DNA from: Nitrososphaerales archaeon
GTDB lineage: Archaea; Thermoproteota; Nitrososphaeria; Conexivisphaerales; UBA164
Assembly (NCBI GenBank): GCA_023256355.1
Contig: JAGDXJ010000007.1
Span: 1 to 42,670 of the forward strand
Reading direction: 5' to 3'
Length of the DNA: 42,670 nucleotides
Part shown: one piece after another, positions 1 through 3,535 of the stretch
Numbering within the stretch: the stretch's first letter is position 1
Layout: every line of letters starts with the position of its first letter
The notes under the pieces: generated by a model
Database searches by the model: none
What the model was told of the DNA's origin: nothing
Seen by the model: only the letters and a program-made list of their open reading frames with translations
Translations under genes and position numbers: made by a program

Positions 1-113
1 ATTTGATGAAATGCCTTGTCTGCTTCAATGTGCCTGGCCACCATAAAGCCCACAAAAAAGCTGAAGATCATACCAAGAATTACAATATAGATAATTTTGA
101 GAATCATATTCAT
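1..113 (-). CDS. Small membrane protein, N-terminal part
   Basis: This gene runs off the left edge of the window, so only about 37 residues are visible. They form one hydrophobic segment (residues about 5-28, rich in I, V, F, G and M) followed by a charged stretch with ARHIEADKAF, as in a protein with an N-terminal membrane anchor. The first ATG overlaps the stop of the preceding HTH/zinc-ribbon gene in an ATGA arrangement. A second ATG two codons later sits six bases from a GGAG motif and may be the true start. Function is unknown. It belongs to the integrated element cassette. Confidence 0.5.
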   Translation of the reverse strand, partial: MNMILKIIYIVILGMIFSFFVGFMVARHIEADKAFHQ

Positions 114-769
114 CTCCAGCTCCTCCTTATTATCTCCTTGACCTTTCTTGCTATCGCCCTGTATGCATTCCTGCTGTTGAACAGCTCGGGGTAGTTCTTC
201 TGGAGATAATAGTATTGCTGATCGAAGATGCGCGAAACGTATTCGGTGAACTTATCAGCGTCCTCAATATACAGCGCGGTCTCCATGATCTCATTCAGCA
301 GCTGTGCCTTCATCTTTTCATACCGGCGCGTGTCAGCATGGGCGTTCTCGATTATATGTTTCAGATAGAGCGGGCTGTTCTGCAGGTGCAGGTCTTTCGC
401 GAGCTGGTCGTAATTTATTTCAGTCCCCAGCCCATGGTTCGGGAGTATGCTGTGCACACGTTCGTGATGATCATCCTCTTTTATTTCGTAGTCGAAGTTA
501 TCGCTGTATTCAAACCCGCAGTTGTGGCAGACCTTGCCGTCGAAGTTTTCTGTAAAGCAGATTGGACAGAGCTTCTTGATGTTGTGGGTTTCTTTCAGCC
601 GCTTCCACCGCATTTTGGCGCCCGAATATGATAGTCCAAGCATTTTTGCGATGTCCGCTAGAGAATATTCCGGATGGAAGAATCGTATATAGAAAAGCTC
701 GTGCAGCGCGTTTTGGTATGTGACCATGTGACCATGCCGTTTTGTCATCTTATTGGTCTGCATTTTCAT
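110..769 (-). CDS. HTH and zinc-ribbon DNA-binding protein, TFB-like
   Basis: The 219-residue protein has a helix-turn-helix-like segment at about residues 36-58 (SLADIAKMLGLSYSGAKMRW). A zinc ribbon with Cys68, Cys71, Cys81 and Cys84 follows (CPICF...CHNCGF). After the ribbon comes a stretch containing HGLGTEINYDQLA, which resembles the linker after the zinc ribbon of archaeal TFB. The rest is helical and charged, ending in a basic tail. I do not see two clear cyclin folds, so it is not a full TFB. It may be a transcription or replication regulator of the integrated element. Its start overlaps the end of the 62-residue upstream gene, and its stop overlaps the next gene, so translation is probably coupled. 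Function is inferred only. Confidence 0.6.
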   Translation of the reverse strand: MKMQTNKMTKRHGHMVTYQNALHELFYIRFFHPEYSLADIAKMLGLSYSGAKMRWKRLKETHNIKKLCPICFTENFDGKVCHNCGFEYSDNFDYEIKEDDHHERVHSILPNHGLGTEINYDQLAKDLHLQNSPLYLKHIIENAHADTRRYEKMKAQLLNEIMETALYIEDADKFTEYVSRIFDQQYYYLQKNYPELFNSRNAYRAIARKVKEIIRRSWR

Positions 770-938
770 TTATCACCTTATTATCTAAAAGCGTCAGCAT
801 TTGCAGGATTTTGGACAGCTCCTGCTCGCCCACGCTTCTGCTGTAGATCGTCCTTCCCTGCCTCGCGCCCTTATCTAAGGACGACCAGCCGTACTCGACT
901 ATGCGTATTAAATACCGCTTGTGCCTGAACTCTCTCAT
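750..938 (-). CDS. Small basic protein of unknown function
   Basis: A 62-residue product that I do not recognise. The N-terminal half is basic and aromatic (MREFRHKRYLIRIVEYGW). The C-terminal half looks helical (ELSKILQMLTLLDNKVINEN). Its ATG overlaps the TGA of the upstream nuclease gene in an ATGA arrangement, and its end overlaps the start of the HTH/zinc-ribbon gene by 20 bases. This packing between two convincing genes on the same strand is the main support that it is real. It could be a DNA-binding accessory protein, but nothing in the sequence proves this. Confidence 0.55.
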   Translation of the reverse strand: MREFRHKRYLIRIVEYGWSSLDKGARQGRTIYSRSVGEQELSKILQMLTLLDNKVINENADQ

Positions 939-1234
939 TTTCTCTCCTCCAGCCTCGCCAGGTATTCGGCGTCGACCATAGCTATGTATTTGTTCGAGCC
1001 CTTAGGGTGCAGGATCAGCACCGGCACTTTGCCCTCCTGCTTTGCCTTCTCTACCGTCTCGAGCCAGACCCTGTAGAAGGGGATCCTGGCCCGGTGTTTG
1101 ACCTCGATGAAGAGCTTGTCATGAATTACGTCTGCTTGTGTGTGTCTGCTGTTCCTTCCTGATAGTGGGTTCCTTTGGGCGTTGAACATGCGCGCTACTC
1201 TCCTTTCTACCGCTTTCCAGGTCTTGTCAGGCAT
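935..1234 (-). CDS. PD-(D/E)xK nuclease, Holliday-junction-resolvase-like
   Basis: The 99-residue product carries a compact nuclease core. An N-terminal helix (TWKAVERRVARMF) is followed by GRNSRHTQADVI and LFIEVKHRARIPF, giving Asp35, Glu44 and Lys46 as the D...ExK metal-binding set. The size and layout match small archaeal Holliday-junction resolvases and related phage nucleases, though I cannot choose between resolvase and restriction-like nuclease. The start is the ATG that overlaps the stop of the small coiled-coil gene upstream (ATGCCTGA). A longer reading with 14 more residues exists, but those residues duplicate the coiled-coil gene in another frame. In the element it probably processes replication or recombination intermediates. 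Confidence 0.65.
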   Translation of the reverse strand: MPDKTWKAVERRVARMFNAQRNPLSGRNSRHTQADVIHDKLFIEVKHRARIPFYRVWLETVEKAKQEGKVPVLILHPKGSNKYIAMVDAEYLARLEERK

Positions 1235-1367
1235 TTTTCTCATCCTCCAGCAGCTCTTCCAGGAGGAGGGCCACAAACTCCTCCAGCTCGGAAATCCTGT
1301 GCTGCGTCTCGATCAGCTCGTCCTGAATTCTCTGCAGCTCAGAAATGATAGTTTCCCTGTCACGCAT
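1227..1367 (-). CDS. 46-residue coiled-coil protein
   Basis: This short gene reads MRDRETIISELQRIQDELIE and continues with regularly spaced Leu/Ile and many Glu, ending in LLEDEKNA. The heptad-like spacing predicts one long coiled-coil helix. It overlaps the upstream gene by eight bases and the nuclease start by eight bases, so it fits the coupled cassette exactly. It could be an oligomerising partner or regulator of the adjacent nuclease, by position only. No family can be assigned at this size. Confidence 0.5.
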   Translation of the reverse strand: MRDRETIISELQRIQDELIETQHRISELEEFVALLLEELLEDEKNA

Positions 1368-1809
1368 GTTCTTCACCACCTTTGCATGTCGTTCTGGCAT
1401 TCAACCCCTTAATTTCGCCATCCTTCAGCAACATGTATAATTCCTTGAGCGCTTTCTTCCAGTTGCTTCTTAACATCGTCATGGACTCTACAAAATCCCT
1501 GGGCGTTCTGCTTTCATTGTTAAGCTCTGAAAAGCGTGCTATAAGTGTTTCATACACGTAATCGATGCTTATGCCTTTTTCGTCAGCAAGCTTCAGCAAA
1601 TCCGTGAACAGTATTTCGCTGTCGATCTGCTCTGAATAGAGCTCGAGGGCACGGTTGTAGTTATCATCCAGTTGTTTTTTCGCTTCTGCTTTATCGTCAG
1701 AGAACTTCGTGAAATTATTTATTGCCACGAAGATGTGCATGAACTCCTTCCAGATGTCAGGCCACGTTTTGATTGTTTGTGCCTTTTGGGCTATGTCAAA
1801 GAGCTCCAT
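1360..1809 (-). CDS. Hypothetical helical protein of the integrated element
   Basis: A 149-residue soluble, acidic and probably all-helical protein with no motif that I recognise. It is rich in Lys/Glu/Asp and aromatic residues, with segments such as TWPDIWKEFMHIFVAINN and MTMLRSNWKKALKELYMLL. No cysteine cluster or membrane segment is present except one Cys near the end. Its ATG sits directly at the stop of the upstream zinc-finger gene (one shared base), and its end overlaps the coiled-coil gene. It is therefore likely translated as part of the same message. No function is proposed. Confidence 0.55.
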   Translation of the reverse strand: MELFDIAQKAQTIKTWPDIWKEFMHIFVAINNFTKFSDDKAEAKKQLDDNYNRALELYSEQIDSEILFTDLLKLADEKGISIDYVYETLIARFSELNNESRTPRDFVESMTMLRSNWKKALKELYMLLKDGEIKGLNARTTCKGGEEHA

Positions 1810-2024
1810 TATGATCGCCCCTGTTCAAGCTCCTCGTGAGCTAAAGCATCGTTTATACTGATAAAAACACAGTTGCATACCATGCATTTGTATATTTTGT
1901 ATGACTTTTGTGTGATCTTGCTGTACATCACTGTAATTTTGAAATGATGCAACTGCTGTTCTTTGACAGATTCGGCATCTTTCGCAAAATATGATTCTAC
2001 GAGATACTTGTTAAGCGCACTCAT
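1809..2024 (-). CDS. Small single zinc-finger protein
   Basis: A 71-residue protein whose C-terminal half has a zinc-finger signature, YKCMVCNCVF followed by NDALAHEEL (Cys47, Cys50, His63, with no obvious fourth ligand). The N-terminal half is mixed and basic. Small zinc-finger regulators of this kind are frequent in archaeal plasmids and viruses. It overlaps the end of the upstream repeat/zinc-finger gene by 14 bases, and both end in a similar CxxC...H module, so the two may be related by duplication or may bind similar DNA. DNA binding is inferred. Confidence 0.55.
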   Translation of the reverse strand: MSALNKYLVESYFAKDAESVKEQQLHHFKITVMYSKITQKSYKIYKCMVCNCVFISINDALAHEELEQGRS

Positions 2025-2685
2025 GTTGCTTCGCCTCCTCTTTCGACGTAAACCTCATACCGCATTTCCTGCACACATACTCGGTCTTAGTGTAGGATCC
2101 ATCAGGGTTTGTGGTTACAATTGTGCTGAATCTGTGGCGAAAATCTTCGTCCCCATCGCTAAACACTTCTTGAATATTAGGCTTGACGTCTGGCTTTGAC
2201 GTTTGGTCTGGTGCTGTGCTAGGCTTTTGGTCGTTTTGGAACTTTTGGAATTTTTGGAACTCTTCTCCGGGGGTATATCTAGGTTCTGGGCAGTTCTGAC
2301 AGTCATTTCCGGAAGCCATTTTTTGGAACTTTTGGTCGTTTTGGAACTTTTGGAACAGGTTTCCGGAGGCACTTTCCCCATTGCCGGTCTGGTCTGAGTC
2401 CTGACTATGCTCCCGGAAAGTTGTTCCAAAAGTTCCAAAAGTTCCAAAAGTACCAAAAGACTCCAGATTTGCGAGCTTACCGTCAGGCTGTGGCAGTACT
2501 TTATTCAAATTTAAGAAAACAACAGAACGTCTATCTCTGGTTATTTCTATGCCGAACACCGTCTTGATCTGATTGAGTTTTTCCTGCGATGGATTGCGGG
2601 TTCTTAAAATTTTAGTAACCTCGCTGAAATAGCTAAAGCCAAGCCCCTCCCAGTGGATCAGATCCAAAGGGATCATGAACGGCAT
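2011..2685 (-). CDS. Low-complexity-linker protein with C-terminal zinc finger
   Basis: The 224-residue product has three parts. Residues about 1-65 look folded, possibly a winged helix (SYFSEVTKILRTRNPSQEKL, then RRSVVFLNLNKVL). Residues about 75-165 are low-complexity linker with FGT repeated four times and two K-F-Q/N-D-Q stretches, encoded by the 9-bp DNA repeats described separately. The C-terminus is a finger, YVCRKCGMRF...KQHEC, with Cys205, Cys208, His221 and Cys223 as ligands. Repetitive linkers of this type occur in replication proteins of archaeal elements, so a replication or regulatory role is plausible but unproven. It overlaps the 3' end of the integrase-like gene by about 50 bases in another frame. 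Confidence 0.55.
   Translation of the reverse strand: MPFMIPLDLIHWEGLGFSYFSEVTKILRTRNPSQEKLNQIKTVFGIEITRDRRSVVFLNLNKVLPQPDGKLANLESFGTFGTFGTFGTTFREHSQDSDQTGNGESASGNLFQKFQNDQKFQKMASGNDCQNCPEPRYTPGEEFQKFQKFQNDQKPSTAPDQTSKPDVKPNIQEVFSDGDEDFRHRFSTIVTTNPDGSYTKTEYVCRKCGMRFTSKEEAKQHECA
2225..2458. repeat. Three four-unit arrays of a 9-bp repeat, one inverted
   Basis: Array 1 (2225-2260) and array 2 (2321-2356) each hold four tandem 9-bp units on the plus strand: TTTTGGAAC, or variants TTTTGGTCG and TTTTGGAAT. Array 3 (2423-2458) holds four units in the opposite orientation (three GTTCCAAAA and one GTACCAAAA). All units keep the same phase within an array. They lie inside a minus-strand gene and encode its FGT and KFQ repeats. 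Unit length, number and inverted layout resemble iterons of a replication origin, but protein-level repeat expansion could also explain them. Confidence 0.8.
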
Positions 2686-3367
2686 CGATATCGATGAATG
2701 TGTAGTAGCGAAACTCCCTCTTTGGCCTTATGACGTCGATCCTTATTGGACATTTCGATAGGTCCCACTTCGCAGGATCTTCCCCCAGAGCCCTGACAAG
2801 TTGTGGATACCCGTAAAAGTTGAAGCTCAGGGCCAGCGTTGAAGCGTCCATGCCGCTCTGGAGCATGGTGAGGATAATCGCCCTGCTTCTCAGGTCTAGC
2901 TCTGCTTTGCTGAGCACCTGGGTTACGAACGAAAGGAAATCCTTTGCCGTAACTTTTGTTTCGAGGCTGTTCGACCCCGCCTTTATGCTCAACCTTTCGT
3001 TTGGAAGCTGGATGTGGTTGTGCGAATAGAAAGACCTGATCCTTTCATACTGCTTGTGAACGGTCTTTCTTTTCCCTGGATACTGGTTCACATACTCCAG
3101 GGCTTCATTAAGGTGCTTTATCAGAGTCCGATTTGTTCCGTCAAGGCATTCCTCTACGATCTTATCGGGATCTGATTCCAGCCCTTTCTGCTTTCTCCAT
3201 CGAAGGTATCTGGCGAAAGAATAGAGGCTGCCCAGCTGACTGTCGCCAGGGGCCAGCTTTGAAAGCCACTGCCTGATGCTCTCTTTCTGCTTCAGCTCTT
3301 CAACGTCGGCGTAGACCTTTGGCCGTCCCGTCATACGTCTATTAAAAGCGGAATTCCTTAAGTTCAT
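2633..3367 (-). CDS. Tyrosine-recombinase-like integrase, truncated
   Basis: The 244-residue product resembles the N-terminal core-binding domain and first part of the catalytic domain of archaeal tyrosine integrases. Visible parts are a SAM-like helical segment (DSQLGSLYSFARYLRW), then RAIILTMLQSGMDASTLALS, and the strand pair PIRIDVIRPKREFRYYTF. The position usually held by the first catalytic Arg (SGxRxS/T) is Asp-Ala here. The protein ends before the HxR box and the Tyr nucleophile, so it cannot be an active recombinase alone. The chosen ATG lies five bases beyond the tRNA-Trp 3' end; an internal ATG at 3334 is an alternative. It may be a degraded integrase or one half of a gene split by integration. 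Confidence 0.6.
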   Translation of the reverse strand: MNLRNSAFNRRMTGRPKVYADVEELKQKESIRQWLSKLAPGDSQLGSLYSFARYLRWRKQKGLESDPDKIVEECLDGTNRTLIKHLNEALEYVNQYPGKRKTVHKQYERIRSFYSHNHIQLPNERLSIKAGSNSLETKVTAKDFLSFVTQVLSKAELDLRSRAIILTMLQSGMDASTLALSFNFYGYPQLVRALGEDPAKWDLSKCPIRIDVIRPKREFRYYTFIDIDAVHDPFGSDPLGGAWL

Positions 3368-3371
3368 AAAG

Positions 3372-3535
3372 TGGGGACGGTGGGACTTGAACCCACAACC
3401 AGCAGGTTTCTCCACGCTCCAGAATTTAATGTTAAACACGTAGCCGCATTTTATGCGGCTCAAACTAATTTGGGCTTGCCCCTACGGGCTTTTGATTCTG
3501 GAGCCTGCCGTCCTGCCCTTTTAGACGACGTCCCC
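3372..3535 (-). tRNA. trnW: tRNA-Trp (CCA) with a 90-nt intron
   Basis: The exons are 3498-3535 and 3372-3407 and give a 74-nt mature tRNA. It has acceptor stem GGGGACG/CGUCCCC, D-stem GUCU/GGAC, anticodon stem GCAGG/CCUGC, loop CUCCAGA (anticodon CCA), T-loop UUCAAGU and discriminator A; CCA is not encoded. The intron (3408-3497) follows position 37, the usual archaeal site. A bulge-helix-bulge is visible: helix CUCC/GGAG, bulge AGA on one side and AAA on the other, cut as AG^A and AA^A by the splicing endonuclease. The intron contains a GCCC/GGGC hairpin and an 8-bp AGCCGCAU/AUGCGGCU hairpin. A TATA box lies about 26 bases upstream. Confidence 0.95.

Follow-up and report, generated by a model that had tools for sequence, protein, structure and literature searches.

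In archaeal mobile elements, few replication origins have so far been located. Classical iteron plasmids carry direct iterons of ~17-22 bp beside a gene of the RepA/pi type. In the phage-inducible chromosomal islands (SaPI), two iteron sets lie 3' of rep, on either side of an AT-rich centre (PMC6092414), while the origin of phage lambda has four iterons within gene O (PMC4488673), and the D5-family helicase Cch2 of SCCmec binds short direct repeats directly 3' of its own gene (PMC7581432). In archaea, two reports on the Sulfolobus plasmid pRN1 describe a 100-bp stem-loop, 54 bp 3' of the P4-family rep gene, that is required for replication; loop deletions and structure-disturbing mutations abolish replication (PMC4234260; PMC3869888). 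The authors of the former detected no iterons at the origin, and gel shifts did not reveal Rep binding (PMC4234260).

Here we consider three arrays of 9-bp repeats in the 42.7-kb stretch of archaeal DNA that was analysed as a whole (hereafter, the window). On comparative sequence grounds, these arrays are likely to be the iterons of a replication origin belonging to a P4-like archaeal integrated element, captured in the C-terminal linker of a helicase, with the present copy probably a deletion derivative. The origin reading is the most likely one because the same repeat layout is seen again at the replication-helicase genes of many other archaeal elements, within or next to them.

Opposed arrays in a helicase-derived reading frame

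The earlier note on this DNA reported three four-unit arrays of 9-bp repeats, one of them inverted, inside a single gene. Its coordinates proved exact (Table 1), and 100 of the 108 bases in the 12 units agree with the consensus TTTTGGAAC, from which 10 of the 12 units differ by at most one mismatch. All three arrays fall within the open reading frame (ORF) at 2011-2685 on the reverse strand, where they encode the FGT and KFQ peptide repeats just as the earlier note had read them. A feature that it did not mention is the motif T[TC]TCCGG[AG][AG]G, found 3 nt beyond the last unit of every array; its four occurrences in the entire window all lie within 2264-2419. No AT-rich stretch was seen in the centre between the opposed arrays 2 and 3, nor beside any of the three arrays. 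A scan of periods 6-15 detected no comparable arrays elsewhere in the window, and an opposed period-9 pair arose in 0 of 100 dinucleotide shuffles of window positions 1-3400.

Table 1. Positions in the window of the repeat arrays, their associated motifs and the surrounding genes.
Feature	Position	Strand	Description
HTH/zinc-ribbon gene	110..769	-	34% identity to a gene beside the helicase and integrase of genome G010 (tblastn E=2e-36)
Holliday-junction-resolvase-like gene	935..1276	-	PHROG 2002, E=2.5e-9
Second small C2H2-like zinc-finger ORF	1809..2024	-	71 aa
ORF carrying the arrays	2011..2685	-	224 aa; N-terminal part homologous to residues 488-558 of the 723-aa helicase of genome G008; then array linker; then C2H2-like finger
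Array 1	2225..2260	+	Four 9-bp units TTTTGGTCG TTTTGGAAC TTTTGGAAT TTTTGGAAC; antisense to gene; encodes EFQKFQKFQNDQK
Motif copy	2264..2273	+	TCTCCGGGGG; 3 nt past array 1
Extra motif copy	2306..2315	+	TTTCCGGAAG; between arrays 1 and 2, upstream of array 2
Array 2	2321..2356	+	Four 9-bp units TTTTGGAAC TTTTGGTCG TTTTGGAAC TTTTGGAAC; encodes LFQKFQNDQKFQK
Centre between opposed arrays 2 and 3	2357..2422		66 bp, 56% G+C
Motif copy	2360..2369	+	TTTCCGGAGG; 3 nt past array 2
Motif copy	2410..2419	-	TTTCCGGGAG; 3 nt past array 3, in array 3 orientation
Array 3	2423..2458	-	Four 9-bp units, TTTTGGTAC and three copies of TTTTGGAAC; sense to gene; encodes FGTFGTFGTFGT
Integrase ORF	2633..3463	-	Start probably near 3334; homology to longer integrases ends at ~residue 263
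Intron-containing tRNA gene	3372..3535	-	Anticodon CCA (Trp, read from sequence); Rfam match; missed by ARAGORN

The similarity of the arrays is a property of the DNA and not of the encoded peptide. When the protein was kept constant and codons were redrawn according to local usage, 50,000 synonymous recodings gave a mean unit match of 81.1 (sd 2.7, maximum 94), and none reached the observed 100 of 108. Array 3 matches array 1 at 33 of 36 positions and array 2 at 32 of 36, against recoded means of ~20 and a maximum of 29 (0/20,000 as good). Phenylalanine is encoded by TTT in all four cases in the FGT array and by TTC in all six in the KFQ arrays (Fisher p=0.005), a split that matches the need for a single DNA unit to be read in both directions. 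The recoding excess alone is no proof of selection because recent duplication copies DNA too, and the argument for selection rests on the comparative evidence set out below; recent expansion of an array would also yield DNA identity, but not opposed arrays with a fixed layout.

The ORF itself is a C-terminal helicase fragment that lacks the ATPase domain. Where the earlier note saw a zinc-finger protein, a C2H2-like motif is indeed present at the C-terminus, but it falls below Pfam cut-offs (zf-C2H2 E=0.065), and a DUF7128 match also stays under its threshold (E=3.4e-5, 24.1 bits vs cut-off 25.7). No intact D5/SF3 helicase gene was found in the element, and neither a matching helicase nor a D5 match in its own, 82%-complete genome. 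Homology of the neighbouring integrase to longer integrases stops where the helicase fragment starts, and the window holds no complete integrase. Since integrase and helicase are truncated at one junction, the simplest cause is a deletion, which would make the window element a probable deletion derivative. The self-contained replication or copy-control module with a self-binding protein, envisaged in the earlier note, is therefore not supported: its gene is a helicase remnant abutting a truncated integrase, and no helicase to match it was found in the 82%-complete genome. 

The tRNA-Trp gene at 3372-3535 is likely to be the attachment site of the element, whose G+C content is 46.7% against 37.7% for the chromosome. 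The contig end falls inside the element, and the other end of the element was not found in its own genome. The HTH/zinc-ribbon gene is held in common with an element of genome G010 that has an integrase and a helicase with in-gene arrays, which suggests a common element backbone. A second integrase copy, 68% identical and with one stop codon, lies at the end of another contig of the same genome (C31:38897-39640), and nearby DNA on that contig also matches the att-side sequence of the window (79% over 64 bp).

Related arrays at archaeal replication-helicase loci

The closest relatives of the ORF are two helicases of genome G008 (L013 and L014). Their homologous linker holds four 9-bp units of another sequence (ATTTCGGTA type; FGNFGNFGNFGMF in L014), followed by TTTTCCGGA, with its TTTCCGG motif, at the same 3-nt spacing as in the window; L014 has an opposed array copy past the gene end. 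In genome G010, the 9-mer at L170 is GGTTCCGGC, which encodes GSGGSGGS and SSGGSGGS and has an opposed array ~30 bp before the gene, and L172 carries opposed AAACCAACA/TGTTGGTTC arrays that encode NKTNKTNK and VGSVGSVG. The amino-acid repeats of relatives include FGN, SGG, TNK/VGS, AEQ/APP and VTT. Across the sequences compared, 9-mers and peptides change, while spacing, opposition and place are constant. The earlier note had looked to relatives to decide between DNA and protein, and had taken lack of conservation of the 9-mer, or retention of the amino-acid repeats with other codons, as signs of a protein-only explanation. The 9-mer is not conserved, the amino-acid repeats are not kept either, and only the DNA layout persists. 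Likewise, the search of related archaeal elements that it recommended did not return the exact 9-mer (a single weak array, which did not match, came out of 300 genomes of the class), but did recover the opposed 9-bp architecture.

The replication proteins of G010 differ among themselves and have one MCM-like C-terminal winged helix, but other 9-mers. The replication proteins at L014, L170, L173, L172 and L171, from different elements, have similar C-terminal modules that look like the winged helix of chromosomal MCM, as if this end had been swapped between elements or acquired from the host helicase. A search with the common winged helix returned mainly chromosomal MCM genes, and these became the control set. 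In Pfam, no D5 match was obtained for the 723-aa G008 helicase, nor did it match viral contigs or plasmids/phages, and the L170 helicase has no match among viral contigs. Profile comparison of the N-terminal domain of the window ORF with D5 winged helices showed no homology, none could be demonstrated for the linker-proximal domain of the G008 helicase, and a structure prediction for the helicase was unusable (pLDDT 31).

Opposed tandem arrays with spacings of 6-16 were sought at 41 archaeal P4/D5-type helicase loci (TIGR01613) from class-level relatives, at 19 helicase loci from other families of the phylum, and at 27 chromosomal MCM loci as a control set. At the strict threshold, spacing 9 was found at 8 of the 41 loci, spacing 6 at two, and spacings 7, 8 and 10-16 at none; relaxing the threshold raised spacing 9 to 11 loci, with every other spacing at three or fewer. 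The 19 further loci gave strict spacing-9 arrays in six cases, spacing 6 in one and the remaining spacings in none. The number of independent events is smaller than these counts of positive loci because some come from the same genome (G007, G010, G126, G680), and around three quarters of D5 loci had no opposed arrays at the thresholds used. Opposed 9-bp arrays were present at 0 of the 27 MCM loci.

The arrays lie immediately 3' of the helicase gene, in intergenic DNA, at L122, L124, L134 and L135, and at the relaxed threshold also 3' of the gene at L123, L137 and L150. They are immediately 5' of it at L119 and L120, ~1.5 kb away at L126, and within the 3' part of the gene in the window ORF, in G008 and at L121, L172, L210-L213 and L215. 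At L121, L210-L213 and L215 they come after the winged-helix region (which ends GIKLK, GVGLK, GISVK etc.), often before a further C-terminal domain, and phage primase profiles from this family stop at residue 439 (L170) and residue 539 (L121), where the in-gene arrays start. The DNA symmetry of the in-gene opposed pairs exceeds all recodings at L121, L172 and L210-L213, and is matched by 4/10,000 recodings at L215; all of these pairs encode different peptides on their two sides. Relatives with a window-like layout do carry an intact D5/SF3 helicase gene, and in the intergenic relatives L124, L134 and L135 the region between the arrays is AT-rich. The suggestion in the earlier note that iterons are overlaid on a coding linker is well supported by two lines of evidence, namely DNA identity above every recoding and opposed 9-bp arrays at other archaeal replication-helicase genes. 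On the simplest account, the winged-helix code would be followed by the origin, through which the ORF would have become extended in several lineages. Opposed TGTCA-type arrays were also noted upstream of the helicase at L120:600-900 and L119:3497-3780; as the TGTCA core recurs in L124, L135, L137 and L150 of other genomes, the units may belong to a small number of recognisable classes.

Tandem TTTTGG arrays by themselves mean nothing and thus served as a negative control, the evidence being opposition and gene context. A scan of all genomes for three tandem copies of TTTTGGNAC returned 17 stretches. All but one of them were bacterial, and those whose context was checked lay in unrelated genes (kinase, penicillin-binding protein, transporter). 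At the strict threshold, none of 22 bacterial and viral TTTTGG-array loci had an opposed partner, and on relaxing it a single partner appeared; five viral contigs that carry comparable arrays were discarded, the opposed partner being absent at the strict threshold. One viral contig contains ~400 bp of 9-bp TTGCACAGA/TTGCACAAA repeats with five frames open (L038:2461-2857).

The arms of the origin stem-loops of the pRN1 family (pRN1, L180:5083-5184; pRN2, L181:59-159; pHEN7, L182, 3' of rep) also have a 9-bp period. In the plasmid record of pRN1 the arm contains TGTCCATAG TGTCCAACT, and the corresponding sequences are GGACCGATA GGACAGGAA in pRN2 and GTCACCACT GTCACAACT in pHEN7. Pooling pRN1, pRN2, pHEN7, pDL10 and one haloarchaeal plasmid gave z=6.9 for period 9 and at most 0.7 for all other periods from 6 to 12, a result that does not represent five independent cases because the four Sulfolobales plasmids are related. 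The available parts of the pRN1 reports make no mention of this periodicity (PMC4234260, PMC3869888).

Proposed mechanism and alternative explanations

In the origin that we propose, the opposed 9-bp sets of arrays 2 and 3 face each other across the 66-bp centre, with array 1 as a further set behind. The C-terminal DNA-binding domain of the element helicase would bind the opposed sets, two helicase rings, loaded head to head, would melt the centre, and copying of the DNA would fall to host enzymes. The in-gene form may have arisen by extension of a helicase ORF through the origin lying downstream and by addition of a second C-terminal domain, after which the origin would encode a flexible linker. 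Of such a gene the window retains no more than the 3' part, fused behind the truncated integrase, and this copy would replicate at most with a helicase from a relative.

The arrays might instead matter for the protein only, as a low-complexity linker grown by replication slippage and devoid of DNA function. The linker does sit between folded protein parts, and tandem arrays of TTTTGGNAC are present both within unrelated bacterial genes and between genes, outside any replication context. We nonetheless disfavour this explanation as very unlikely: opposed arrays are not a product of slippage, the two orientations encode unrelated peptides (FGT, KFQ) with a DNA match beyond every synonymous recoding, the arrays are intergenic in several relatives, and the 22 bacterial and viral control loci have no opposed partner at strict thresholds. 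Spacer-free tandem sites are typical of ribbon-helix-helix (RHH), AbrB-type and zinc-finger regulators and partition proteins, and the units could bind a small protein of this kind as an operator or a centromere-like partition site, serving autoregulation, copy control or segregation. Small DNA-binding ORFs adjoin the G008 helicases (AbrB/MazE-like at L014, RHH-like by eye at L013), and zinc-finger ORFs are present in the window. However, the arrays accompany the 3' end or the linker of the helicase gene, and not its promoter or a parA gene; moreover, the counterpart in pRN1 is required for replication itself (PMC4234260, PMC3869888), so that we judge such a role unlikely.

It is also conceivable that the opposed arrays act as stem-loop arms of a rolling-circle or cruciform origin rather than as iterons, as proposed in the pRN1 reports, whose authors read the same geometry as a stem-loop of 100 bp (PMC4234260; PMC3869888). 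The arms have a 9-bp period, for which a stem has no need, and the window has two arrays one way and one the other, which makes this reading highly improbable. A different possibility qualifies rather than opposes the origin reading, namely that the arrays are a dead remnant, an ancestral origin with no role in the truncated copy. The abutting truncations of integrase and helicase, and the lack of a helicase among the genes found in the genome, speak for this; the near-perfect arrays (100/108) and the open fused ORF with its own ATG speak against it, and the assembly may lack a helper helicase because the contig ends within the element and the genome is incomplete. We regard loss of function in this copy as possible, if somewhat doubtful.

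A broader proposition is finely balanced: archaeal P4-family replicons, from Sulfolobales and haloarchaeal plasmids to elements from the class of this archaeon, may have a common origin code of opposed arrays of element-specific 9-bp iterons where the winged-helix code of the helicase ends. In several lineages the ORF may have been extended repeatedly through the origin, which would then encode the linker to a second DNA-binding domain, and the pRN1 stem-loop may be a pair of opposed iteron sets. If true, opposed 9-bp arrays where a P4-type helicase gene ends would make the origins of many archaeal elements predictable and would assist the design of shuttle vectors, and the pRN1 "stem-loop" would receive a new, testable reading. 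In the in-gene form, one DNA stretch would hold two codes, a symmetric putative protein-binding site and a peptide linker dictated by the DNA.

Comparison with known origins

Of the origin types considered, the classical iteron plasmid was ruled out by the 9-bp units and by the absence of any RepA/pi-type Rep domain among the element ORFs in Pfam and PHROG profile searches. A SaPI-like origin, which likewise has two iteron sets about a centre, 3' of the rep gene, was rejected on its AT-rich centre: SaPI are bacterial and have an AT-rich, non-coding centre, whereas that of the window (2357-2422) is 56% G+C and coding. The three iterons of SCCmec Cch2 differ in being 5 nt long, intergenic and bacterial. 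Lambda resembles the window in placing iterons in the coding sequence of an initiator, although descent of the window ORF from an initiator rests on its homology to the G008 helicase. The lambda O protein is not a helicase, and the lambda iterons are 19 bp long and adjoin an AT-rich segment; no homology was seen. A lambda O-type origin, with which the window agrees in its in-gene placement, was set aside on the 9-bp units, the lack of an AT-rich flank and the absence of a PHROG O-family match for ORF 2011-2685.

The P4-related systems come closer. Phage P4 has a D5/P4-type primase-helicase, and its crr lies directly past the 3' end of alpha; within crr, the starts of annotated 8-bp type I repeats are spaced by 9 bp (4314/4323, 4494/4503), and there are opposed copies (4366/4384, 4546/4564). 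P4 lacks longer uninterrupted arrays and its crr is outside alpha, whereas the window has four-unit arrays within a coding sequence that is without the ATPase domain. Opposed 9-bp iteron sets and sites at the 3' end of a helicase gene are features that the window has in common with P4-type paired-iteron origins, although this copy is not classed as a complete P4-type replicon because an intact helicase was looked for and not found. The pRN1, pRN2 and pHEN7 plasmids share with the window an archaeal P4-family Rep, an origin directly 3' of the gene and opposed, 9-bp-periodic arms, ~57-58 bp apart; they differ in having two units per arm and an intergenic location, and in being described in the literature as stem-loops without iterons. 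Overall, the arrangement in the window looks like a P4/pRN1-type origin with a lambda-like in-gene placement.
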